From: a virus
DNA length: 54,092 nt
Strand: one strand, 5' to 3'
Virus record (IMG/VR): IMGVR_UViG_3300047557_001894
Span: 1 to 54,092 of that record
In this document: positions 1-54,092 of the stretch, piece after piece
How the letters are laid out: every line of letters begins with the position of its first letter
Numbering within the stretch: position 1 is the stretch's first letter
Translations under genes and position numbers: made by a program
The notes under the pieces: model-generated
What the model saw: only the letters and a program-made list of their open reading frames with translations
The model's database searches: none
Told to the model about the DNA's origin: nothing

Positions 1-3
1 CAC

Positions 4-723
4 ATGGAGTGGGCGCCTCCGAGCGTCGGGCAGTGGACCGACTACATGCTGGCGCAGGGCGGCGGCGCGAGCTCCAACATGGTGACCATCGACATCGTGG
101 CCGAGGAGCAGCGCGTCGACGCGGCGTGGGCCGGTGCCTACGCGAAGGCGGCGGGGCTCGTGACCGCGTTCCTGCGCTCCCGCGCGCAGCATCTCCACGC
201 CATGCCCAAGGCGGGCGCCGCGTATCTCGACGCGATGCGCTGGCCTTCGCACCGCTCGTGGTCGAACGCGACCAACGCCTTCGCGAGCTCGATCGTGCAA
301 GGCACCGCGAGCATGTACCGCGACCGTCTGATCGCGGCCTACGTGGGCCAGGGCATCAGCGAAGAGTTCGCGAATTGGACCGCGACCGCTGACCTTCCTG
401 ATCCCGACGAAGTGATGGACGGCAAGATCACCTTCAAGCACGAGCCGCACCGTCTCGATCGCACCCTCGCTCTTTCGAGCTCCATGGCGGCGTCGCTCCT
501 CGGCGACGACAACGCGGGTCGCCGCCAGGTTCGCTCGGACGCCTTCTGGCGCTTCATCGGGCAGATGGCCGACCAGAGCGCGACCGACCTGGTGATCCCC
601 GGCGTCGGGGCGATCTTGCGGGCCGAGACCGCGAAGCCCGAGCTTCGCCTCTCGACTACCCGCGAGGGCAATGCGGCGATCTCGAAGATCGCTCCGCACA
701 TGAAGGCGGCTGGGCGCATCTAG
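4..723 (+). CDS. Hypothetical protein, possibly 5'-truncated by the window edge
   Basis: The reading frame is open to the left edge, so the ATG at 4 may be internal and the true start may lie outside the window. The 239-residue product is soluble, Ala-rich and without signal peptide or membrane segment. A Trp/Ser-rich stretch near residues 78-90 and a C-terminal part ending in SKIAPHMKAAGRI are the only landmarks. I do not recognise a family. It ends one base before the first copy of a recurrent structured element, so it is probably the last gene of its translational group. Confidence 0.55.
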   Translation: MEWAPPSVGQWTDYMLAQGGGASSNMVTIDIVAEEQRVDAAWAGAYAKAAGLVTAFLRSRAQHLHAMPKAGAAYLDAMRWPSHRSWSNATNAFASSIVQGTASMYRDRLIAAYVGQGISEEFANWTATADLPDPDEVMDGKITFKHEPHRLDRTLALSSSMAASLLGDDNAGRRQVRSDAFWRFIGQMADQSATDLVIPGVGAILRAETAKPELRLSTTREGNAAISKIAPHMKAAGRI

Positions 724-783
724 CCCCTGTGCTCTCGGTAGGCCCACGCATGCGCATGCGTGGGCTCTCCGTGAGCACAGGGG
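724..783 (+). promoter_or_regulatory. Recurrent structured element, copy 1 (nested hairpin upstream of the gene at 812)
   Basis: An outer perfect 11-bp stem (724-734 with 773-783) encloses CGG/CCG (736-738 with 769-771) and a perfect 24-bp palindrome (742-765). The conserved flanks are CGGTAG at 736-741 and TCTCCGTGA at 766-774. They abut the inner stem exactly, as in copies 2 and 3. There is no U-tract, so a simple terminator is unlikely. The TCTCC at 766-770 is complementary to GGAGA in the downstream ribosome binding site (802-806), which suggests a translational control role. The function is inferred. Confidence 0.7.
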
Positions 784-811
784 CCACGGTCGGCTCGTGC
801 GGGAGAAAGTC

Positions 812-1726
812 ATGGATGAGGACGACGACTCGATGATTCCGAAGACGCTGAAGGACGCTGCGCGAATGCTCGACGCGAATGGCGGTCCGCGTCAGCGCTT
901 CTTCGAGCAGAAGATGAAGCCGCTGATCGAGCAGCTCGAAGCGTTGGCGAACGCCGAGGGCATCCCGTGGGTGAGCGTCATCGAGCTCGATCGAGTGGCC
1001 GCGAAGGAGGGTGAAGCCATCGCCTCGGTGTTCACCCTCGCCGGACAGCGAGACTCGCACGGCAGGATGATTCCGCCGTTGCACCCCGGCATGGTCCTGG
1101 CCGCGGAGGCGTGCTGCGGCACTCCAGACCCAGACCTCATGCACCTAGGTCGTGTGATGCGCATGAAGGCGAATGAGGGGCTGTGCCCCTGCCCTGCGTG
1201 CACGCAGCGGCGTGAGGAGCCCGACGCCAAGCCCGCAGAGGGCGCGAAGACTTCCTCACCGCTGGTGCAATTCAGCAGTCAGGACATCGCCAGTCTCTTT
1301 GCTGAAGTAGCGGCGGTGCGTGTCGAAGGTGAGGTCGTCACCGGGCGCCCCGCGAAGGGGCCGAAGGAAGAAGCCTTCGAGAAGGAGCTGGTGCCGCTTA
1401 TCGAGAATCTGCGAGCGGCGGCGAAGCAGCACGGTGTCCAAGGCATCTTTGCCTTCGACATCGGGAACGGGGAGCGCATCGAAGAAGGGGTCATCGGTGG
1501 CGGTGTCGTGATGGACATGCAGGACATCACGGAGCCGCGTCTGTTGGCGGCCTCGGGTGTGCTCTTCGGCAATCCAGAGAACTACCCGGTCGCGATGCGG
1601 CAGGTAGTGATCGAGTCAGCCAACTTCATCAAGAAGAAGCGCGACGAGCGCGAACGTGCGGGCAAGGGGGAAACGAAGTTCACGCAGCCGGTCGACCCGA
1701 AGGTCAACACGTTCGGCTCGAACTAG
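812..1726 (+). CDS. Hypothetical protein with two copies of a small phage domain
   Basis: The start ATG at 812 is chosen because GGGAGA (801-806) sits at ribosome-binding distance; an in-frame GTG at 797 is less likely. The 304-residue protein contains the same domain twice. The first copy (about residues 30-70) reads like KPLIEQLEALANAEGIPWV. The second (about residues 190-230) reads like VPLIENLRAAAKQHGVQGI and is followed by FAFDIG. Between them lies a Cys cluster (CPCPACTQR, about residue 130). A third copy is in the next gene. The domain resembles small hypothetical proteins common in phage early regions; its function is unknown. It is preceded by structured element copy 1 and followed by copy 2. 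Confidence 0.75.
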   Translation: MDEDDDSMIPKTLKDAARMLDANGGPRQRFFEQKMKPLIEQLEALANAEGIPWVSVIELDRVAAKEGEAIASVFTLAGQRDSHGRMIPPLHPGMVLAAEACCGTPDPDLMHLGRVMRMKANEGLCPCPACTQRREEPDAKPAEGAKTSSPLVQFSSQDIASLFAEVAAVRVEGEVVTGRPAKGPKEEAFEKELVPLIENLRAAAKQHGVQGIFAFDIGNGERIEEGVIGGGVVMDMQDITEPRLLAASGVLFGNPENYPVAMRQVVIESANFIKKKRDERERAGKGETKFTQPVDPKVNTFGSN

Positions 1727-1727
1727 G

Positions 1728-1787
1728 CGCGAGCTCCGACGGTAGAGCGCGCGGCACCAACCACGCGCTTCTCCGTGAGCGCTCGCG
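1728..1787 (+). promoter_or_regulatory. Recurrent structured element, copy 2 (upstream of the gene at 1817)
   Basis: This has the same architecture as copy 1. ACGG (1739-1742) pairs with CCGT (1773-1776), with TAG (1743-1745) opposite TCT (1770-1772). The inner stem is 1746-1754 with 1761-1769 (one C/A mismatch) and has a 6-nt loop. The conserved right flank TCTCCGTGA is at 1770-1778. An outer stem CGCGAGC (1728-1734) with GCTCGCG (1781-1787) carries a 2-nt bulge. The inner stem sequence is unrelated to copies 1 and 3, so pairing is conserved while sequence is not. TCTCC can pair with GGAGA in the downstream ribosome binding site (1807-1811). Confidence 0.7.
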
Positions 1788-1816
1788 TTGTGCGAGGGCC
1801 TGATCGGGAGAGTGAC

Positions 1817-2305
1817 ATGGACGAGAAGCAGAAGGCAGAAGCACAGATGAAGGCGTGCGGAGCGAAGGTAGAGATGGTCGCCACGCACAAGCAGGCAGCC
1901 ATCGACCACCTGAAGGTGCAGGAGCTCCGTCGTCTGAACGCCGAGATGCTCAACTCGGCTTACGAAGGGCCGGAAGCCATCTTGAAGAAGGCGGCTCTCT
2001 TCAAGGAGAAGCTGGACGATCTGCTCGATCCTTCGCCGCACCAGCAGCCCAAGGTCGCGGGCGACCCGAACGACACCCGCGGGCCGAAGGAAGTCATCTA
2101 CGACACCGAGATCGGTCCGCTGATGGATCAGATCATCGCCTGCTGCGAGAAGAACAGCATCCCCATTCTCGCTCACTTCGAGTTCGACGGGGACATGAGA
2201 TGCACAACCAACCTCGGCCCGTTCGCACACATGGGCGCGAGGGTCGCGGAGGCTGCGCTCGTGGGTGGGCCGCGCGCCATTCTGGCGGTTATGGCGGGGG
2301 GCTAG
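1817..2305 (+). CDS. Hypothetical protein with a third copy of the domain found in the 812 gene
   Basis: The start ATG at 1817 follows GGGAGAG (1806-1812). The product is 162 residues: a Lys/Glu-rich helical N-terminal half (about 1-95), then the domain with the pattern IGPLMDQIIACCEKNSIPIL followed by AHFEFDG (about 98-125). This matches both repeats of the preceding protein. The tail is Gly/Ala-rich. The 3' end overlaps the radical SAM gene by 41 bases, suggesting translational coupling. The family is common among phage hypotheticals and its role is unknown. Confidence 0.75.
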   Translation: MDEKQKAEAQMKACGAKVEMVATHKQAAIDHLKVQELRRLNAEMLNSAYEGPEAILKKAALFKEKLDDLLDPSPHQQPKVAGDPNDTRGPKEVIYDTEIGPLMDQIIACCEKNSIPILAHFEFDGDMRCTTNLGPFAHMGARVAEAALVGGPRAILAVMAGG

Positions 2306-3074
2306 CCCCTCCGTGCTCCTAAAGATCACGAACTTTTGCAGCTTAGGCTGCAAGCACTGCATGGAGGACTCGACCATCGCGGGCGAGCACATGACGCGCG
2401 AGACCTTCGAGGCGGCGCTCGATCTCACCGAGCGTGTCGAGGCGAAAGCCTACGCGGCGGGTGCGCCGAGGCATCTGCTCCTCTCGGGTGGCGAGTGCTC
2501 CGAGCACCCTGACTTTCTCGCCTACTTCGAGCGCGCGTTGGAGCGGCGGTTCGTGGTCACGATCATCACCAACGGGATGTGGCTTGGCGACGAAGCGTTG
2601 CGAAACGCGATCGTGCCACGCGCCCTGATGGTGCAAGTGACGAACGATCCGCGCTTCTACCCGAAGGCTCCACCGCGGATCGAGATGCCTCGTCTCGGGT
2701 ACGTGGACTCGCTCACGGCGCTTGTTCCGCTCGGGCGACTGGCTCGCAAGTCGGGGCCACATCCCCTTCCAATCAAGGGCTCTCCGAGCTCGTTCAACGT
2801 CCGCAGCCTCACGCGCAGCCTCGGAGACATCGGCGAAGCCGTTGCCATGATCCGCGTGCGGGCGATGATGGGCAGGGGCGGGCACTGCGCGCCGAGCATC
2901 GGGTGGGACGGCGGCATGTACGCCGGAGAGACGATCAACTGCTTTCGCATCGGAGATGTGCGGAGCACGAACCTGGAGCTGTCGCGGGCCGTTTGCGAGA
3001 TGAAGTGCAACGCCTGCGGCTTGGTCGATGGGCTGCCCGACACGCACAAGGCAGCCATTGGTGAACTCGAATAG
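2265..3074 (+). CDS. Radical SAM domain protein
   Basis: This is a radical S-adenosylmethionine enzyme: Cys25, Cys29 and Cys32 form the CxxxCxxC ligand set for the 4Fe-4S cluster that cleaves SAM, and GGE at 75-77 is the SAM-binding motif. The length is 269 residues. The C-terminal part adds further cysteines (HCAPS, NCFRIGD, CEMKCNAC). These could bind an auxiliary cluster as in SPASM/twitch enzymes, but a full SPASM pattern is not clear. The GTG at 2265 retains PSVLLKITNFC, the usual lead-in to the cluster motif; GTG 2313 is an alternative. The substrate is unknown. It overlaps the preceding small protein and lies 12 bases before a VWA protein, so these may form one functional unit. It lacks the hallmarks of QueE. 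Confidence 0.85.
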   Translation: MGRAPFWRLWRGASPSVLLKITNFCSLGCKHCMEDSTIAGEHMTRETFEAALDLTERVEAKAYAAGAPRHLLLSGGECSEHPDFLAYFERALERRFVVTIITNGMWLGDEALRNAIVPRALMVQVTNDPRFYPKAPPRIEMPRLGYVDSLTALVPLGRLARKSGPHPLPIKGSPSSFNVRSLTRSLGDIGEAVAMIRVRAMMGRGGHCAPSIGWDGGMYAGETINCFRIGDVRSTNLELSRAVCEMKCNACGLVDGLPDTHKAAIGELE

Positions 3075-3086
3075 GGAGAAGCAACG

Positions 3087-4439
3087 ATGGGAATGAACCT
3101 GGCGCAAGCGACTAAGAGCCTGCCAGCACAGCAGAAGCTCTCGGTCGCGCGCATGATGATCGCGCACAAGAACCCGTACTTCACCAGCCTCGTGATCCGA
3201 ATGATCTTCCGCGAGGTCGACAAGGAGTCGCAGCCGATGGGCATCGGCGTCTCGCGTCGAGGCGTCGTGTACTGGCGTCGTGACTTCATCGACCATCTCA
3301 CCGCGGAGCAGCTCGCCGTGTTGCTCCTGAACAAGTCGCTGCACGTCCTCTTTCGGCACTCGGACAGGGCGCGAGCGGGGGCCTTCAACCCCGAGGTGTT
3401 CAACGAGGCGGCTGACTGCGAGATCAACGACGATCTCGAAGCCGCTGGATGGACGATGGAGTCCGTCGACGAGAACGGGCAGCCGTGCAGGCTGCTGACA
3501 CCGAGCCACTTCAAGCTGGAAAGCCACAAGTCAGCCGAGTGGTACTACAACGAGATCATGCAGCAGCGGGCGCAGAACCAGGCGCCCCCTGTGAACCACG
3601 GCACCGCCCGTGGCTGCGGTGGTTCGGGCGCTGGCGGGGCGCCTGGCCCTAACGAACCGAGCGGGCAGCCACAGCCGAACGGTGAGGGTGACGCTTCGGG
3701 CAGCGAGCAGGGCGATGGGGGCATGGACGGGCGCTCTGAGGGCGAGCTGGAGGGAATGCGCGATCAAGTCGCGCAGGGCATGAAGAAGCGGCAGGCGGGG
3801 AAGGGCCAGGGGTCCATGCCCCTCGGCTGGCAAGTCTGGAGCGACGAAGAGCTCAAGCCGCCGACGATCCGGTGGCAAGACGAGCTTCGGCAGACCGTGC
3901 GCAACGCTTTCCGAGCGGTCGCCGGGAACGTGGACCGCACGTTCAAGAAGTCGAACCGCAAGCAGGCTGGCCTTGGCTTCGGCTCGGGTCGCCCGGTCCT
4001 TGCGGGGTGGCACAAGCCCACCCCCAACGTGATGATCGCGATTGACACTTCGGGTTCTATGGGCGGGCTGATGCCCGAGATCATGGCCGAAGTGCAGTCC
4101 ATCCTCACGGAGGTGCGCGGCAGCGTGTCCTTCGTGTCCATCGACGCCGAAGTGCAGAGCTCGGGCCGCACGGCTGACTGGCGAGTGATTGCTCGCGAGT
4201 CGAAGGGCGGCGGCGGTACGGACTTCCGCCCACTGTTCGATCACATCGAGAAGATGCCGAAGAACGAGCAGCCCAACGTGGTGATCTTCGCCACCGACGG
4301 CTGCGGCCCCGCGCCGAAGGACGAGCCCGACCCGCACGTCATCTGGCTCCTGTGCGGGGACTACACGATGAAGCCTGCCTCGTGGGGCAAGTACATCAGC
4401 ACCGACAAGAAGACCACGCCCGAGGCGTACTCAGAGTGA
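3087..4439 (+). CDS. VWA-like domain protein, DUF2201-type, with degenerate metallopeptidase site
   Basis: The N-terminal region (about 1-130) resembles the putative metallopeptidase-like domain of DUF2201 proteins. Where the family normally has HExxH, this protein has NKSLH (residues 82-86), so the zinc-protease site appears lost. A Gly/Pro/Gln-rich linker (about 165-225) joins it to a von Willebrand A domain with an intact MIDAS start, DTSGS at 320-324, and a later ATDGCGP. VWA proteins of this kind usually act with a MoxR-type AAA+ ATPase as metal-dependent protein-remodelling pairs; no MoxR gene is visible here. The start ATG at 3087 is preceded by AGGGAGAAG. It sits in the same transcription unit as the radical SAM gene. 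Confidence 0.85.
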   Translation: MGMNLAQATKSLPAQQKLSVARMMIAHKNPYFTSLVIRMIFREVDKESQPMGIGVSRRGVVYWRRDFIDHLTAEQLAVLLLNKSLHVLFRHSDRARAGAFNPEVFNEAADCEINDDLEAAGWTMESVDENGQPCRLLTPSHFKLESHKSAEWYYNEIMQQRAQNQAPPVNHGTARGCGGSGAGGAPGPNEPSGQPQPNGEGDASGSEQGDGGMDGRSEGELEGMRDQVAQGMKKRQAGKGQGSMPLGWQVWSDEELKPPTIRWQDELRQTVRNAFRAVAGNVDRTFKKSNRKQAGLGFGSGRPVLAGWHKPTPNVMIAIDTSGSMGGLMPEIMAEVQSILTEVRGSVSFVSIDAEVQSSGRTADWRVIARESKGGGGTDFRPLFDHIEKMPKNEQPNVVIFATDGCGPAPKDEPDPHVIWLLCGDYTMKPASWGKYISTDKKTTPEAYSE

Positions 4440-4612
4440 GCGCCGAGACCACGAACAGCAGCGCATCCATGCGCGTGCAGGGGGAGGTCGAGGGCCAGAA
4501 GTACGAAGCCCAGCTCTCCATCAAGACGACGCGGCTCCTCTCGAAGGATGAGCTCGTCGCTCTGATGGCAGAAGTACATCGGGCCATTCGATCGTCGCTG
4601 TCTCAGCGATGA
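4436..4612 (+). CDS. Small hypothetical protein (58 aa)
   Basis: The GTG at 4436 overlaps the stop of the VWA gene (GTGA), the usual coupling in this genome. The product is Ser/Thr-rich at the N-terminus, followed by a short beta-like segment (VQGEVEGQKYEAQLSIK) and a C-terminal amphipathic helix. The stop overlaps the left arm of structured element copy 3. No family recognised. Confidence 0.6.
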   Translation: MSAETTNSSASMRVQGEVEGQKYEAQLSIKTTRLLSKDELVALMAEVHRAIRSSLSQR

Positions 4613-4660
4613 CGGTAGGGCACGGGGTTCGCTCCGTGCCTCTCCGTGATCTCTGGAGGA
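4612..4660 (+). promoter_or_regulatory. Recurrent structured element, copy 3 (upstream of the gene at 4664)
   Basis: ACGG (4612-4615) pairs with CCGT (4644-4647). TAG (4616-4618) lies opposite TCT (4641-4643). The inner stem is GGCACGG (4619-4625) with CCGTGCC (4634-4640), loop 8 nt. The conserved right flank TCTCCGTGA is at 4641-4649. No convincing outer stem is seen. TCTCC/CTCC can pair with the strong Shine-Dalgarno GGAGGA (4655-4660) just before the ATG at 4664, which would block initiation. The role is inferred. Confidence 0.7.
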
Positions 4661-4663
4661 GCC

Positions 4664-5134
4664 ATGAACAAGGCTATTCGTCGCGAGCAGGAGCGCCGTG
4701 CCTACGACCGGCACCAGCGCTCGCGCAAGCCACTGCACTACAAGAGCAAGTACCCTGGCAAGACGCAGGGCAAGCTGTGCTCCTGCGTGATGTGCGGGAA
4801 CCCGCGCAGGCACTTCGGCAAGTCCAAGCGCAAGGAGCTCAACGCGACTCGCGAGAGCCCCGAGCTCTTGCACTTCGAGTCGCTGGACCCGGGGTTTCCC
4901 GACGAGTGCAACATCTGGGATTGCGACTGCGATGACTGCCTCTGGGCGCACCGGCACGACAACGAGCCGTACGTCCAGTCGCGGTTCGAGCACCGGCCCT
5001 TGTCCGCACTCGGAGCATGCGAGCCGTGGCGGTTCATCGAGGAGCTCCGCGTCGCAGAGATTCTGGCGAAGATGGCGCTTCGTCGGACGAAGGCGAAGAT
5101 GGCGCTTCGTCGGACGAAGGCGATGGTGTCGTGA
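4664..5134 (+). CDS. Small Cys-motif protein (CSCxMCGNPR type)
   Basis: The start ATG at 4664 directly follows GGAGGA. The 156-residue basic protein has the motif CSCVMCGNPRR (about residues 42-52). This is typical of a widespread small phage/bacterial family of unknown role and probably coordinates metal. A second Cys cluster, CNIWDCDCDDC, lies at about 83-93. The C-terminus carries a perfect 9-residue tandem duplication, KMALRRTKA twice. The gene is preceded by structured element copy 3. It ends overlapping the next gene (GTGA). Confidence 0.75.
   Translation: MNKAIRREQERRAYDRHQRSRKPLHYKSKYPGKTQGKLCSCVMCGNPRRHFGKSKRKELNATRESPELLHFESLDPGFPDECNIWDCDCDDCLWAHRHDNEPYVQSRFEHRPLSALGACEPWRFIEELRVAEILAKMALRRTKAKMALRRTKAMVS
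5069..5122 (+). repeat. Perfect 27-nt tandem duplication
   Basis: Two identical 27-base units (5069-5095 and 5096-5122) lie at the 3' end of the Cys-motif gene. They encode KMALRRTKA twice in that frame. The length is a multiple of three, so the reading frame is preserved. Likely a recent replication-slippage event. Confidence 0.9.
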
Positions 5135-5643
5135 GTGTCAGCGACGAGCGCGTGCGCGAGTTGGTGGCTCGCGCTCTACGCACCATCGAGACGTACAACC
5201 GCGGCGAGATCATCCAAGAGCAGGACGCTGCCGTCTCGTTCGTTGGTGGCGTGATGGCTGCGACCCGTGCGTCTGCGAACGACTACCTCCAGCGCACGAC
5301 CTTCATGTCCTCGTCCGAGCAGATGTTGGACACCTACGAGTCCAGACAGCTTGTGTACCTAACCGCACGCGCATGGATCACGGCACCCGAGCAGTGGTTC
5401 GGCGTCCCGTGCATGTGGAACCCGGCCCTCGCAGTGCTCGGGGAGATGCTTCGAGAAGACCCGAGCTGGTCTCTAATGATCCTGTTGCCTGAAGCCGTCA
5501 TGCAGACCGGCTCTCGGATCGGTGGCCCGTTCGTTCCCGAAGAGGAGCGCGGCTACCTCGTACCCGTTGCCCATCGGTGGGCGGACTACCTGCGGCAGAC
5601 GAACCCACGACCCATCACACCCGAGGAAAGAGGAGCGACATGA
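5131..5643 (+). CDS. Hypothetical protein
   Basis: The GTG at 5131 overlaps the previous stop (GTGA) and gives a 170-residue product. An upstream in-frame extension through the 27-nt repeat is possible but would be unusually acidic and low in complexity. The protein has an N-terminal amphipathic helix (SDERVRELVARALRTIE) and a Trp-rich centre. The C-terminus looks like AHRWADYLRQ. No membrane segment or known motif was recognised. It ends with ATGA overlap to the next gene. Confidence 0.65.
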   Translation: MSVSDERVRELVARALRTIETYNRGEIIQEQDAAVSFVGGVMAATRASANDYLQRTTFMSSSEQMLDTYESRQLVYLTARAWITAPEQWFGVPCMWNPALAVLGEMLREDPSWSLMILLPEAVMQTGSRIGGPFVPEEERGYLVPVAHRWADYLRQTNPRPITPEERGAT

Positions 5644-6227
5644 AGCTGATCGCATTGCTGGCAGAGCACAAGGAGGCCCGTCGTCGTGGAGCCGCGAAGG
5701 GTGCGCTCTGGCTCGCCAAGGAGGGAGCACCGGGAACGAAGTATTCGTGGGGGCTCGGTGAGCGTGATGCGTGGCACGTCCACAGCCCGACTTCGGGCAC
5801 AGCGAACTACGCGCTGACTATGGAGGATATGAGCATCGACACCTGGTACACGGTGCCGCCGAACCCGCGCGAGAGCTTCACGATCCCCGATCTCGACCCG
5901 TCGATCCCCTGGTCCGAGGGCGTGGTGGAGGATTTCCTTCGGGTAGTGCGCGGGCTTCCGTTCGCGCACAACGACGTGGTGGGTGGCGTCGAGTCGCTCG
6001 TCGCGCAGCGCAAGAAGCTCAACGAGAGCTATCAGCAGCAGCTCAGGCTCGCTGAGGAGATGGCCAATCGGGCCAACCAAGCGGGCGAGAAACTCGCGCA
6101 GGCCGAGCGGCAGAGGGACGAGTTCTCGCTGCTCCTTGCGAAGCACAGCAGGTGCAACGCGCGCTTGCGTCAGGCACTCAAGAGCTTCGGACTGTCGGAC
6201 ACCATCGTTGCGATGCTGGAGGAGTGA
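5640..6227 (+). CDS. Hypothetical coiled-coil protein
   Basis: The ATG at 5640 overlaps the previous stop and follows GAGGAAAGAGGAG, a strong ribosome binding site. The product is 195 residues. The N-terminal two thirds is a mixed domain with several Trp and Pro. Residues about 120-175 form a Gln/Glu/Ala-rich coiled coil (QQQLRLAEEMANRANQAGEK). Function is unknown. Confidence 0.65.
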   Translation: MKLIALLAEHKEARRRGAAKGALWLAKEGAPGTKYSWGLGERDAWHVHSPTSGTANYALTMEDMSIDTWYTVPPNPRESFTIPDLDPSIPWSEGVVEDFLRVVRGLPFAHNDVVGGVESLVAQRKKLNESYQQQLRLAEEMANRANQAGEKLAQAERQRDEFSLLLAKHSRCNARLRQALKSFGLSDTIVAMLEE

Positions 6228-6884: not shown

Positions 6885-7157
6885 ATGAGCGACATTGCAG
6901 AGACGCTTTCGCCGCTGGAGCAGCGCGTCGCTGACTACATCGAGACCCACTACAACCTGTCGCTGACCCGCGGGGGCGTAATGAACGTCCTGGCTCTCGG
7001 TAGGTCGTACCGCATGGAGCGCGGAGACGACGTGTTCACCATGTCGATGCGCTTCGACGAGAACGACGAAGCGGCAGCGATCGAGTGGGTCGACAGCGCG
7101 CAGGCGAAGGAAGCGATGCGCGAGATGTTCGGAGCCGACAAGGGCGACGAAGAGTAG
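6885..7157 (+). CDS. Hypothetical protein (90 aa)
   Basis: The start ATG at 6885 is preceded by GAGAAAGGAA at a somewhat long distance. The product is acidic, with an N-terminal helix (LSPLEQRVADYIETHYN) and a likely beta hairpin around YRMERGDDVFTMSMRF. Unrecognised. Confidence 0.6.
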   Translation: MSDIAETLSPLEQRVADYIETHYNLSLTRGGVMNVLALGRSYRMERGDDVFTMSMRFDENDEAAAIEWVDSAQAKEAMREMFGADKGDEE

Positions 7158-10881: not shown

Positions 10882-11258
10882 AACCGAAGGATGAGCCTAA
10901 CTACGAGAAGCTGCTCCCGATGCCCTTCAGCTCCTTCTCATACTACACCCGCGAGTGGGACATCGAGTTCGGGGTGAAGTGCGTTCTCAGCGAACGCGCT
11001 CCAGCGCCGTCGTGGATGCACTGCATCGACAAGTCGCGCAGGAGCGTTCTCTACTATCGAGACGGCCGAGACCGCGTGGACTTCGCCAACGCTTGTGCGC
11101 GAGCACACGGTCTCGATATCCCGCTGCTCACCGAGGAAGACCTAGCGCCCTGCAACAGGCAGGTCTTCCTAGAGTGGATGGGCAGCTACTTCGATCAGGT
11201 GCGGGCTCGATACGTCATCATGGGTGCAGACACGTCCACCACGAACGGAGACGAGTGA
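10878..11258 (+). CDS. Member of a tandem family of small proteins, copy 2
   Basis: The ATG at 10878 overlaps the previous stop. The 126-residue protein contains DFANACARAHGLDIP followed by FLEWMGSYFDQVRARYVIMG. This aligns with the corresponding part of copy 3 (LMQCANAHGVVCE...LEQWLVNYFTQVQVRYVV). Duplicated, diverged genes of unknown role. Confidence 0.65.
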   Translation: MKPKDEPNYEKLLPMPFSSFSYYTREWDIEFGVKCVLSERAPAPSWMHCIDKSRRSVLYYRDGRDRVDFANACARAHGLDIPLLTEEDLAPCNRQVFLEWMGSYFDQVRARYVIMGADTSTTNGDE

Positions 11259-11620
11259 TGCTCGTGCTACCGCTGCCTGCCGCCGACTACACGGCGTTCC
11301 CGCTGAGCACTGACCTGTCCTTCGCTATGAAGGCTTTGGGCAGGCACGCACGCATCCCGTTGGGATTGTTTCACTGCGTGCCCAATATTGCGATCCGCGT
11401 AACCTCGCGCGAAGATCAGGCAGCGGCACTCATGCAGTGCGCAAACGCGCACGGCGTAGTGTGCGAAGCCTTGGAGAGCGCCTGGCTGCCGCCGTTCCGC
11501 CTAAACGATCCGCACCCCTCGGTTGCGGAAGCGACGAAGCTGGAGCAGTGGCTCGTCAACTACTTCACGCAAGTACAAGTACGGTACGTGGTGCGGGGGG
11601 CGACAGACGACGCGCGTTGA
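11258..11620 (+). CDS. Member of a tandem family of small proteins, copy 3
   Basis: The ATG at 11258 overlaps the previous stop (TGATG). The 120-residue product aligns with copy 2 across its second half (AxAHG motif, then W..YFxQVxxRYV). The stop overlaps the -35-like sequence of the putative promoter for the sigma-factor gene. Confidence 0.65.
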   Translation: MLVLPLPAADYTAFPLSTDLSFAMKALGRHARIPLGLFHCVPNIAIRVTSREDQAAALMQCANAHGVVCEALESAWLPPFRLNDPHPSVAEATKLEQWLVNYFTQVQVRYVVRGATDDAR

Positions 11621-26672: not shown

Positions 26673-27519
26673 GAGCACGGACCCGATGGACGATCCCATG
26701 GACAACCCGATCGACGACGGGGACGATTCCCGCTACGACGATCCGGGGGCGGGGGAGAACCACAAGGGCAGCCGTACGGGCGTGGCGCTGTGGGGAGACT
26801 TCGACGACGAGTCGGCGCGCGAGCAGGCCGACCGCGACGAGAAGGACCGCGGCGTCGGCAAGTTCCTCAAGCTCAAGGAGGGCAAGACCATCCTGCGCGT
26901 GCTGCCCCCGGCACGCGGAGAGAAGGTTCCCTTCAAGACGGTGTGGGAGCACAACCTGAAGCTGCCGGGTGGCAACGTCGCGTTCGCCTGCCCGCGCAAC
27001 AACTTCAAGCTGCCCTGCCCTGCTTGCCAGCAGGAGTCCAAGCTCAAGCAGGAGGGCATGGACGAGCGCGCCAAGGGCTTCCGAGCCAAGAAGCGCTACT
27101 ACGCGAACGTCATCGTTCGCGGTGAAGAAGAGCTCGGCCCCCGCATCTGGGGCTTCGGCGCGATGATCGAGGAAGACCTCATGTCGATCCGCAACGACGG
27201 CGGCGTGAACTTCTCGCACCCCATCTCGGGCGTCGATCTGATCGTGACCCGCAAGGGCACGGGTGAGAACGACACCGAATACAAGGTGATCGCGAACCCC
27301 AAGGGCCCCACGCCGCTTGCCTCCGACGAGGTGATGCAAGAGCTCGCGGAGTCGATGCACGATCTGGGGTCGATCGTCCGCACGAAGACCGCTTCGGAGA
27401 TCATCGACGCCATCGCGGGTCGCGTGAGCAACGACCGCGGCGGCAACCGGCTGGGCAGCGGTGAGCAGCCCAGGGGCGGCGGGGCCGCCGCGCAGCTCCG
27501 TAACAGCAACCGCCGGTAG
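26659..27519 (+). CDS. Single-stranded DNA-binding protein, gp32-like
   Basis: Start ATG 26659. The 286-residue protein has an acidic N-terminus. A core follows with FLKLKEGKTILRVLPP, the zinc-ligand region HNLKLPGG...CPRNNFKLPCPACQQ (about 95-118), then KKRYYANVIV and DLIVTRKGTG. This is the T4 gp32-type OB fold with a zinc subdomain. The Gly/Arg/Asn-rich C-terminus (RGGGAAAQLRN) is not the usual acidic tail. It coats ssDNA at the fork and in recombination; neighbours are polymerase and the SbcCD pair. Confidence 0.85.
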   Translation: MNRPKSTDPMDDPMDNPIDDGDDSRYDDPGAGENHKGSRTGVALWGDFDDESAREQADRDEKDRGVGKFLKLKEGKTILRVLPPARGEKVPFKTVWEHNLKLPGGNVAFACPRNNFKLPCPACQQESKLKQEGMDERAKGFRAKKRYYANVIVRGEEELGPRIWGFGAMIEEDLMSIRNDGGVNFSHPISGVDLIVTRKGTGENDTEYKVIANPKGPTPLASDEVMQELAESMHDLGSIVRTKTASEIIDAIAGRVSNDRGGNRLGSGEQPRGGGAAAQLRNSNRR

Positions 27520-27530
27520 TCCGGCTGGTT

Positions 27531-27582
27531 TCCGCGGCCTGGCGGTGGCCGAGTTCGGGTTCGATTCCCGACCGCGGAGCAA
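27531..27582 (+). other. tRNA-like minihelix (acceptor stem plus T-arm)
   Basis: TCCGCGG (27531-27537) pairs perfectly with CCGCGGA (27572-27578). A canonical T-arm, TCGGG-TTCGATT-CCCGA (27555-27571), abuts the 3' acceptor strand exactly as in tRNA. Only 17 bases lie where the D and anticodon arms should be, so no anticodon arm exists. The end reads GCAA instead of NCCA. It could be a tRNA relic, a captured tRNA 3' end (attachment-site-like) or a functional tRNA mimic. A GCCGG/CCGGC hairpin (27512-27525) precedes it. Confidence 0.55.
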
Positions 27583-27593
27583 GGAGTAACAGG

Positions 27594-28904
27594 ATGAGCG
27601 CGACTTTGGATGCGTTCGCGTTCTGCGCGGACGTGCATCTGGGCAACATGCGGTCGTACGCGAAGCCCTGGTTGGGCTCTCTCAACTCTCGGGCGAAGCA
27701 CTCCCTCGATAGCCTCACTTGGTTTCTAGGGAGCTGTGTTCACAGCAAGACGCCCGTAATCTGCGGAGACCTGTTCGACTACCCGAACCCAGAAGCGATG
27801 CTGCTGGCGAAGGTCGCGGGCATTCGGGGGATGAATAACTCCATCCAGCTCCTCGGGAACCACGACCAGCACAGCAAGGAAGTGGGGGACAACGCTCTAT
27901 CGGCTCTCCGCGTCGGTCGCGCCATTACGGAGCCGAAAGTCGTAGGCGCACGCCTAGCACTGGTGCCGTTCGAGCCGGGAGTAGCGCCCGCAGAGCTCAT
28001 CGAGCGGGCGCTGAAAGGTAATCCGATCCCCACGACGACCTACTCGCCGAGGTTCATGGCGATCCACGCTGGCATTGCCGACGCTGGGACGCCTGAGTTC
28101 ATGCTCCACAAGAAGGACGAGTACATCCAAGTCAGCGACTTGGTGGACTTGATGGAGCAGTACGACATCGACACCTGCTTCGCGGGCAACTGGCATGAGC
28201 CGCGGTCGTGGAAGATGAACCCGAGTGGCAAGCCGCGGCGGGTGATCCAGTGCGGCGCGTTGTGCCCGACGGGGTTCGACAACGAGGGCCTGCTCTACGG
28301 ACTCTCGTACACCACGCAAAGGACCGACAAGTGGACTCGCACGGCGGACGCGCCGACGATGATCCTGACGCGCGGGCCGCGATTCCTCACTCTCCGACAG
28401 GATGAGCCGATCCTGCTGCGCGTGATCGAGGCGTACTCCCGCATCCTCACGCTCGACGAGCACTGCCGTGGTCTGTCCGCGCTGAGCGGGCCGCACGACT
28501 GGCCGAGGCAGTCAGTGTTGGCTCTTGGGCCCAAGACCATGTACTCGGGGCTGTGCCTCTCGGACTTCGCATCGGCCCTGTATGTCAACGTGAAGGTCGA
28601 CCCTCGGTCGAGCATCGCCAAGATTCGCTCGGATGCTGAGGACACCATCAACACAGCGCTCTCGCTGCACCCTGCATCCCGCCGCAGATACAACCCAGAC
28701 GGGGTGCTGGAGTATTTGAGCGTCACGCCCGACGCAAAGGCGCAGGAGCGGACGCACGAAGACGCAACGCGCAAAGCGCTGCACGACTCCCGCGGGTTTC
28801 GCGAGCGCGTCGAGACCTACTTGGACTCGATGGAAGTCCCCGAGGGCGTGGACCGCGGCGTAGTGCTCGGCAAGGTGATGCACTTTCTCAACAGAGGTAC
28901 CTGA
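27594..28904 (+). CDS. SbcD/Mre11-like metallophosphoesterase (T4 gp47-like)
   Basis: Start ATG 27594 after AAGGAG. The 436-residue protein shows calcineurin-type motifs: FCADVHLG (about 12), CGDLFDYP (about 60), GNHDQH (about 93), AIHAG (about 155) and GNWHEP (about 198). In the last motif the first His of the usual GHxH is Asn. It is the nuclease partner of the SbcC-like ATPase encoded at 29311 and processes ends and hairpins during recombination and host-DNA degradation. Confidence 0.88.
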   Translation: MSATLDAFAFCADVHLGNMRSYAKPWLGSLNSRAKHSLDSLTWFLGSCVHSKTPVICGDLFDYPNPEAMLLAKVAGIRGMNNSIQLLGNHDQHSKEVGDNALSALRVGRAITEPKVVGARLALVPFEPGVAPAELIERALKGNPIPTTTYSPRFMAIHAGIADAGTPEFMLHKKDEYIQVSDLVDLMEQYDIDTCFAGNWHEPRSWKMNPSGKPRRVIQCGALCPTGFDNEGLLYGLSYTTQRTDKWTRTADAPTMILTRGPRFLTLRQDEPILLRVIEAYSRILTLDEHCRGLSALSGPHDWPRQSVLALGPKTMYSGLCLSDFASALYVNVKVDPRSSIAKIRSDAEDTINTALSLHPASRRRYNPDGVLEYLSVTPDAKAQERTHEDATRKALHDSRGFRERVETYLDSMEVPEGVDRGVVLGKVMHFLNRGT

Positions 28905-35479: not shown

Positions 35480-35559
35480 GACCTAAGAGGGGGTTCCCTG
35501 TTTGCCCAGAGAGCCCCCGCGTGCGTCCTTGGCCCGGAATGCGCAGAATGGAGCCCGCC

Positions 35560-35841: not shown

Positions 35842-35853
35842 GATCGAAAGACG

Positions 35854-35893
35854 AAGGGCCGGGGAGAGGTGGTGCTCTCCCCGGCCCTTTGCT
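35854..35893. terminator. Bidirectional intrinsic terminator between convergent gene blocks
   Basis: A perfect 15-bp stem (35854-35868 with 35875-35889) has a 6-nt loop. On the + strand it is followed by TTGCTTTT; on the - strand by CGTCTTTC. It sits exactly between the rightward and leftward transcription units, so it probably stops both. Confidence 0.9.
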
Positions 35894-40779: not shown

Positions 40780-41066
40780 TTGGGTTCCGCCATCGACCAC
40801 GGGTAGGGACCGCTGCCAGCCTTGCGCGTCCAGCAGTGTTCGACCTTGGCGGTGCGGTACTGCATCCAAACTGCGACGAGCTGAAGGCAGGGCTGCCCTT
40901 CGCGGCACGCGGAGCACCCTGGGTGAGAGGACCACCCGTAGTCCTCGAAGACCATCGCTTCGCCGACGCGCACGGCTCTGTCGGGAATCTCGACTTCGAG
41001 GTCCGTGTTCGTGCCGACTTTTTCCCCGCCGATGAGCTCTTCGAGCTGCTTGATCTGAAACTTCAT
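40776..41066 (-). CDS. Small CxxC protein, paralogue of the 37896 gene
   Basis: ATG 41066 follows GGAGGAG, which lies in the second arm of a perfect hairpin, so initiation is probably repressed. The 96-residue product contains GCSACREGQPCLQLV, shared with the 37896 protein. The N-terminal KFQIKQLEELIGGEK is distinct. Its stop overlaps the methylase start. Confidence 0.65.
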   Translation of the reverse strand: MKFQIKQLEELIGGEKVGTNTDLEVEIPDRAVRVGEAMVFEDYGWSSHPGCSACREGQPCLQLVAVWMQYRTAKVEHCWTRKAGSGPYPWSMAEPK

Positions 41067-41104
41067 AGGCTACTCCTCCGAGCCGAACCCGGAGGAGTAG
41101 CCTA
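41066..41104 (-). promoter_or_regulatory. Perfect 15-bp hairpin burying ribosome binding site and start codon
   Basis: On the - strand, 41104-41090 and 41080-41066 form a perfect 15-bp stem with a 9-nt loop. The second arm contains GGAGGAG, and its last base is the A of the ATG at 41066. With this structure closed, the gene at 40776 and the coupled methylase gene would not be translated. There is no U-tract, so termination is less likely. Confidence 0.75.
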
Positions 41105-53359: not shown

Positions 53360-54087
53360 CGGCGCCCCCGAGCGCGCAAGAGCGCTTCCATCACGCCCTG
53401 CTCCTCCGTCGGGCGATCCGACATATCGCGTCGGCGCGGCACTGGCGTTGACGTTGGCCGCGGTCGGCGGTCGGGAACCGACGTGCGCTTGCCAGGACTC
53501 GACGCCTGCTCGCCGCGAAGGAGCTGGTTCGTCTCCGCGCCCAGCAGGTCGTTGCGCACCACGAAGTAGTTTTGGAACTCGAAGCTCACGTTGAGCCCTT
53601 CGAGCGCCCAGGTGTAGTTGACGCTGGAGACGCGAAAGAAGTTCTGGATGCGCTGGATGCTCCCTCGCGAAGTCGCGAGGATCGCACGGGCCATTCGTTC
53701 GCTGCCGATGCGCTCGGTGATCTCTCGCAGCTCTTGCGCGAAGGGCTGCCGAAAGTGGTCGGCCGCATCGTTCGGGTTTGCCGCGCCGCGCAGGTTGCCG
53801 TCGAAGTAGAACTCCACCGCGTCACCAGGGCGCAAGCGGAGCAAGTCGGGGTCTTCGTTGCCAGCGCCGAAGCTGGACAAGTCCTTCGACTCGCACGTTC
53901 CGCCCATCTCGTTGCGCCCGATCTCGTTGAAGAGAGCCTGCGCAATGGTCAGCAGACGCTCGCGGTCGCGCACACCGTAGACGGGCACGTTCAACAAGTC
54001 GGTCTGTGACTGGCCCCCCGAAGGGGCCACACGGTTACGTGCCGCCGCCTCGACTTGGCGCGACAGGGGAGCAGAGGGCGGCGGCAC
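53356..54087 (-). CDS. Baseplate hub protein, C-terminal fragment
   Basis: The frame is open to the right window edge, so this is the 3' part of a larger gene; the GTG at 54087 is only the outermost visible codon. The sequence has LRPGDAVEFYFDGNLRG and FFRVSSVNYTWALEGLNVSFEFQNYFVVRND. These fit the C-terminal region of late-control-D/hub proteins, which sit between tube and spike. The Arg/Pro-rich tail ends just at the spike gene start. Confidence 0.6.
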   Translation of the reverse strand: MPPPSAPLSRQVEAAARNRVAPSGGQSQTDLLNVPVYGVRDRERLLTIAQALFNEIGRNEMGGTCESKDLSSFGAGNEDPDLLRLRPGDAVEFYFDGNLRGAANPNDAADHFRQPFAQELREITERIGSERMARAILATSRGSIQRIQNFFRVSSVNYTWALEGLNVSFEFQNYFVVRNDLLGAETNQLLRGEQASSPGKRTSVPDRRPRPTSTPVPRRRDMSDRPTEEQGVMEALLRARGRR

Positions 54088-54092
54088 GTAAC

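Follow-up and report, generated by a model that had tools for sequence, protein, structure and literature searches.

Why does an operon at the left end of a viral genome carry, in its gaps between genes, three hairpins with the same nucleotides in the middle and different ones in their stems? The genome is IMG/VR record IMGVR_UViG_3300047557_001894 (54,092 bases, linear, G+C about 64%), and the window referred to below is this whole stretch at its full length. If the hairpins are a processing or binding signal, they would mark cotranscribed phage genes with a compact tag of sequence plus structure, in a lineage without a laboratory representative, and would provide a testable case of how phages without the machinery of T7 divide or control polycistronic messages. 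Compensatory changes found inside one genome also make the element a promising candidate for a genuine RNA family awaiting relatives.

The record encodes replication proteins on the + strand (a DnaB-like helicase, a primase, a PolI-like polymerase and an SbcC-like protein) and has a baseplate wedge gene on the - strand. Its left end is an apparent polycistronic operon on the + strand, which carries all three hairpins. The features of this region are as follows.

4-723, + strand: C-terminal part of a MoxR-like ATPase gene (phrog_1297 ATPase, E 6e-10), cut by the contig end; its stop codon TAG (721-723) adjoins the copy 1 element
723-784, + strand: copy 1, whole hairpin (MFE -55.5 kcal/mol, z -8.6; also detected as an inverted repeat); perfect outer stem of 12 bp, 723-734/773-784; core CGGTAG...TCTCCGTGA, 736-774, with an insert of 24 nt; core pairs CGG/CCG, 736-738/769-771, followed by an internal loop, with T.T outside the core; inner stem 741-751/756-766, loop 752-755
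812-1726, + strand: gene B, downstream of copy 1; two copies of a GPKE..PL domain, no Pfam family
1726-1789, + strand: copy 2, whole hairpin (-39.9 kcal/mol, z -3.9); outer stem of 9 bp, 1726-1734/1781-1789; core 1740-1778 with an insert of 24 nt; core pairs ACGG/CCGT, 1739-1742/1773-1776; inner stem 1745-1754/1761-1770 with one C.A mismatch
1817-2305, + strand: gene C, downstream of copy 2 (phrog_20111); one GPKE..PL domain in common with gene B
ending at 3074, + strand: radical SAM protein gene, between gene C and the VWA gene
3087-4439, + strand: VWA-like DUF2201 protein gene (PF13203, PF09967)
4436-4612, + strand: small gene; its stop codon TGA (4610-4612) adjoins the copy 3 core
4597-4662, + strand: copy 3, whole hairpin (-38.9 kcal/mol, z -4.5); weak, interrupted outer stem; core 4613-4649 with an insert of 22 nt; core pairs ACGG/CCGT, 4612-4615/4644-4647; inner stem 4618-4627/4632-4641, loop TTCG
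4664-5134, + strand: gene D, downstream of copy 3; CSCVMCGNPRR motif (phrog_4499, E 5e-5), no assigned function

DUF2201 VWA-like proteins are partners of MoxR-type ATPases, and we infer the MoxR-like label of the truncated ATPase from this VWA partner gene. The short GPKE..PL domain, present in the neighbouring genes B (two copies) and C (one), matches phrog_20111, a family of no known function; no domain of this type was detected in gene D.

The original prediction, made from the letters of the sequence, described identical flanks, CGGTAG and TCTCCGTGA, abutting a paired insert three times. A search for the pattern CGGTAG-N{5,35}-TCTCCGTGA confirmed this with three matches in the window, all on the + strand, against none in 100 shuffles (mean 0.00). 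The inner stems are perfect in copies 1 and 3 and carry one mismatch in copy 2, as had been claimed: the insert pairs completely in copy 1 (10 pairs) and in copy 3 (9 pairs, one of them G.U), and the mismatch in copy 2 is C.A. Equally good pairing at the outer nine positions is rare in random window segments matched in length to the inserts: 0.04% reach it for copy 1, 0.36% for copy 2 and 0.03% for copy 3. The stems had also been called unrelated in sequence, which goes too far, since copies 2 and 3 share six of the first nine left-arm bases.

The element is larger than first described. Outer stems of 12 bp in copy 1 and 9 bp in copy 2 had been missed, so that the complete element reads stem, core, stem and loop over about 62 nt, with the conserved core in the middle of the hairpin. 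Within this core, CGG pairs with CCG, and UAG lies opposite UCU with a G.U pair beside the inner stem, giving a symmetric internal loop; an alternative pairing, AG with CU between two single-U bulges, costs copy 1 only 0.8 kcal/mol. The closing pairs ACGG/CCGT that had been proposed hold for copies 2 and 3, where the outermost pair is A-U, and fail for copy 1, which has T.T at that place. The TGA on the 3' side is fixed though its partners vary (T.T in copy 1, G.G in copy 3). The conserved core is thus CGG-UAG / UCU-CCG-UGA, partly mispaired, and it joins two stems that differ between copies; this combination of conserved core and variable stems is certainly present in the sequence. A coarse scan of the window found no stretch of this size more stable than copy 1, which has 26 standard base pairs, interrupted at the core only. 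In copy 3 the outer stem is weak because the left arm is coding sequence, the ribosome-binding site GGAGGAG falls within reach of the right arm, which overlaps it, and a competing hairpin lies at 4592-4612.

Is the pairing itself under selection? When the three copies are aligned, 93% of cells are standard pairs. Seven of the ten inner pairs compared have changed on both sides among the copies, and these seven, all in the inner stem, compare with 2.7 in shuffles, in a sample of three sequences from one genome whose structure was chosen from the same sequences. The signal weakens or disappears when the pairing partner is shifted by one to three columns. The covariation is suggestive and falls short of being conclusive, but it is hard to explain without selection on pairing. 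The genes after copies 1 and 2 have a domain in common, and these two copies also have similar ribosome-binding regions; they may therefore descend from one duplicated leader, while copy 3 precedes a gene that is apparently unrelated to B and C. This raises the alternative that the elements are functionless remnants of old paralogous leaders, with a core kept by chance, and three copies in one genome are thin evidence against which to judge it. We regard it as quite improbable, as neutral drift would not be expected to leave compensatory changes in seven of ten inner pairs beside 15 identical flanking bases, and copy 3 stands before a gene in which the shared domain was not detected. Selection on pairing is likely, with the proviso that the three copies come from one genome and two of them precede domain-sharing genes.

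The placement of the elements bears on whether they work as RNA or as DNA. On the coding strand, every copy fills the gap that runs from a stop codon to the ribosome-binding site of the following gene, and each sizeable gap in the first 4.7 kb of the operon holds one element. In copies 1 and 2 the outer arm begins at the final base of the upstream stop codon, and the element ends about 17 nt 5' of the ribosome-binding site. The original prediction placed each copy in the leader of a different early gene. A position before genes is borne out; "early" is not. The sites are spaces between the genes of what appears to be a polycistronic operon, and a domain is common to two of the three genes that follow them. 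No space for a promoter is left between stop codon and element, and a scan found no promoter-like site near any of the three. The hairpins are not followed by a run of at least four T, which argues against intrinsic terminators. Elsewhere, the other tested gaps of the window show no unusual folding, with the exception of an intergenic hairpin at 35480-35520 (GGGGGTTC.CTG...CAG.GAGCCCCC, z -3.5), whose core is unlike that of the three elements.

Because the gap is filled from the stop codon to near the ribosome-binding site, and always on the coding strand, the elements probably act as RNA. Folding does not decide this, since the minus strands fold about as well overall (-55.5, -43.4 and -30.4 kcal/mol for copies 1, 2 and 3). 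Of the predicted selected, structured RNA, then, structure and selection are upheld by the paired inserts, the compensatory differences and the low folding energies, and the choice of RNA over DNA is not, given the similar folding of the minus strand. A palindrome acting at the DNA level could be a dispersed mobile hairpin, a single-stranded DNA recombination site or a site recognised as a cruciform. The similar folding of both strands would suit it, as would the distribution of wobble pairs between them (the G.U of copy 3 is on the + strand, and the C.A of copy 2 becomes G.U on the - strand), and the elements separate genes as cassette boundaries would. Recent moves should leave shared stems, however, and here the stems differ beside identical flanks; the three copies all point the same way with respect to the genes, and no copies occur elsewhere in the window. 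An integron attC site was rejected, with neither the boxes GTTRRRY and RYYYAAC nor a tyrosine integrase found in the record, and so were transposon ends, with no Y1 transposase in the record. We consider a DNA-level role unlikely.

What, then, might such an RNA do? Our leading explanation, held tentatively and drawn by analogy, is that the elements are cis-acting intercistronic mRNA hairpins, laid out like the RNase III sites of phage T7 and processed by a double-strand endonuclease. In the T7 record, one pattern recovers five hairpins in or just before early-gene gaps, with near-identical outer arms (AAGGTC...GGCCTT) and variable tips. Four of them we take, by position, to be published RNase III sites (the T7 set is R0.3, R0.5, R1, R1.1 and R1.3). 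The remaining one, R1.1, between genes 1.0 and 1.1, is a 60-nt hairpin with an internal loop and an experimentally proven RNase III substrate (PMC6121014). Like the present elements, the T7 sites are single hairpins of about 60 nt, several per operon, in gaps between consecutive genes of the same strand; they combine conserved arms with variable tips across copies, and a promoter or terminator role is not needed to account for them. The T7 arm sequence AAGGTC/GGCCTT and asymmetric internal loop are absent here, and the conserved part is a symmetric mispaired loop between two variable stems rather than the lower stem, as in T7; cleavage of the present elements is putative.

In the proposed mechanism, the operon would be transcribed as a single RNA, as its gene layout suggests, and each hairpin would form in the mRNA. 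The conserved core may be where a double-strand-specific endonuclease, in the simplest case host RNase III, recognises and cuts the RNA. Cutting would separate the cistrons, give the upstream message a stable 3' end and leave the gene after it with a short 5' leader. Because the outer arm of copies 1 and 2 begins on the last base of the stop codon, a ribosome terminating there could hold back folding and might in this way tie processing to translation. The hairpins themselves, their covariation and gap position, the lack of promoter space and of a T-tract terminator, and the occurrence of the same layout in a known system all speak for processing. Around 26 base pairs is also the size of an RNase III substrate, and copy 1 has that number. 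Against processing, RNase III does not need 15 fixed nucleotides, the internal loop is symmetric here as opposed to 4/5 asymmetric in R1.1, copy 3 has its poor outer stem and competing hairpin, and the minus strand again folds about as well.

The fixed nucleotides point to another possibility. Sequence-specific recognition is indicated because the 3' TGA is fixed while its partners are not kept, and the elements may be binding sites for a sequence-specific RNA-binding protein, of phage or host, or for RNA polymerase, controlling translation or antitermination of the MoxR/VWA operon, with the core as recognition element and the variable stems as scaffold. The freedom of both stems around a fixed core fits this account, and several genes of one operon have a copy ahead of them, as would be expected of regulon sites. 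In addition, the nearly equal AG/CU form of the core, with two single bulged U's, resembles paired bulges, a common protein-binding shape, as has been suggested for the pan motif (PMC2864571). That Rfam motif is likewise a stem with conserved single-base bulges in more than one copy, but the bulges would be U on the coding strand here, the gene context is different, and no Rfam match was obtained.

No candidate RNA-binding protein was identified among the genes scanned. A search of the record for a single-subunit RNA polymerase (PF00940) gave no match, and control genomes were likewise unmatched. With regard to antitermination, the put RNAs of phage HK022 are also repeated, structured, cis-acting phage RNAs of about 70 nt, but the published ones have two stem-loops and lie downstream of early promoters (PMC9378689), whereas each element here is one hairpin within an operon, abutting a stop codon; identity with put was rejected on the single hairpin and the absence of a promoter-like site nearby. 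The fixed core amid changing stems and the TGA kept without pairing hold protein binding close to processing, and ranking processing above it is a reasoned choice. The boldest version would be a new class of phage cis-regulatory RNA, an internal-loop core on freely varying stems, recognised by a protein of phage or host dedicated to it and coordinating the MoxR-ATPase/VWA operon in a lineage without sequenced close relatives; this is conceivable, if on balance rather unlikely.

The conserved internal loop in a leader position, together with the overlap between the outer arm of copy 3 and its ribosome-binding site, could also bring to mind a riboswitch, that is, a leader that senses a small molecule for the downstream genes. 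A core this small would be unusual in an aptamer, copies 1 and 2 stop short of the ribosome-binding site without an obvious expression platform, and the genes downstream of the three hairpins have no common metabolic theme, all of which makes this highly improbable. A related candidate, an anti-Shine-Dalgarno switch pairing UCUCC with GGGAGA, is possible in letters and unlikely in practice, as a very stable hairpin would have to be disrupted.

Does the element occur elsewhere? No described family had been recognised in the original prediction, and the lack of any Rfam 15 match to the elements at the gathering threshold supports this as far as that database reaches, the one match in the window at that threshold being a tRNA at another place; a permissive Rfam scan gave chance-level matches only. 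A covariance model of the three copies found no fourth copy in the window (next independent match, E = 0.11). Relaxing the core yielded 11 matches against 2 expected, and the extra ones, which have no long abutting stem, were rejected. So were a site at 6993, which has a 12-mer in common with copy 1 and lies within coding sequence with no element-like fold, and 11246-11272 on the minus strand, which has a short stem only. Scans of viral contigs for the exact core starting with ACGGTAG or TCGGTAG returned chance-level matches only, and scans of viral contigs with any preceding base and of bacterial genomes did the same among the matches listed; the insert pairing of scan matches follows the chance distribution. 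Single elements compared with phages and plasmids gave chance-level pieces only.

Searches of viral contigs with the DNA polymerase, radical SAM, gene B and gene C proteins found no close relatives. The VWA protein led to 12 related loci (26-39% identity), in which the covariance model had no credible match. Among GenBank phages there was no DNA match to positions 1-6000 and no protein match for genes B and C, and gene D had one short, weak protein match. With no close relative recovered by the protein searches, the absence of further copies mostly reflects the absence of relatives, and it neither confirms nor refutes the element. In a generic search for sets of flanks with variable stems, covering the window and the 12 related loci, the three-copy level was reached by this set alone.

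Repeats with a comparable position are known from cluster K mycobacteriophages, whose extended start-associated sequences (ESAS) are multi-copy inverted repeats of one orientation in gaps of more than 50 bp upstream of non-structural genes, with no known function (PMC3203893). The elements here resemble them in lying upstream of genes, in being repeated in one orientation and in that their function is likewise not known. ESAS differ in that their 17-bp repeats are conserved and enclose a short spacer, with a 13-bp GGGATAGGAGCCC next to them, and the TM4 repeats (TGTTGA...TCAACA) do not resemble the core here. The GGGATAGGAGCCC box had no match with fewer than three mismatches in this phage, and its three-mismatch matches were at shuffle level. 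Identity with ESAS was thus rejected on sequence, organisation and the lack of GGGATAGGAGCCC enrichment.

Several other structures were observed in the window. A tRNA-like fragment on the + strand (27531-27583), between genes ending at 27519 and starting at 27594, combines an acceptor-like CCGCGG stem with a canonical T-arm (CGGGTTCGATTCCCG) and lacks an anticodon arm; it gave a sub-threshold mascRNA-menRNA match (22.3 bits against a gathering threshold of 42.5) and no ARAGORN call. At the convergence of + and - strand gene blocks, a G+C-rich hairpin of 17 bp (35852-35891) is probably a transcription terminator. A perfect inverted repeat of 15 to 18 bp at 41066-41104 forms a hairpin on the - strand. 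Finally, a perfect 16-bp inverted repeat (54034-54049 / 54077-54092) ends exactly at the right contig end and is either a genome-end feature or an assembly fold-back.
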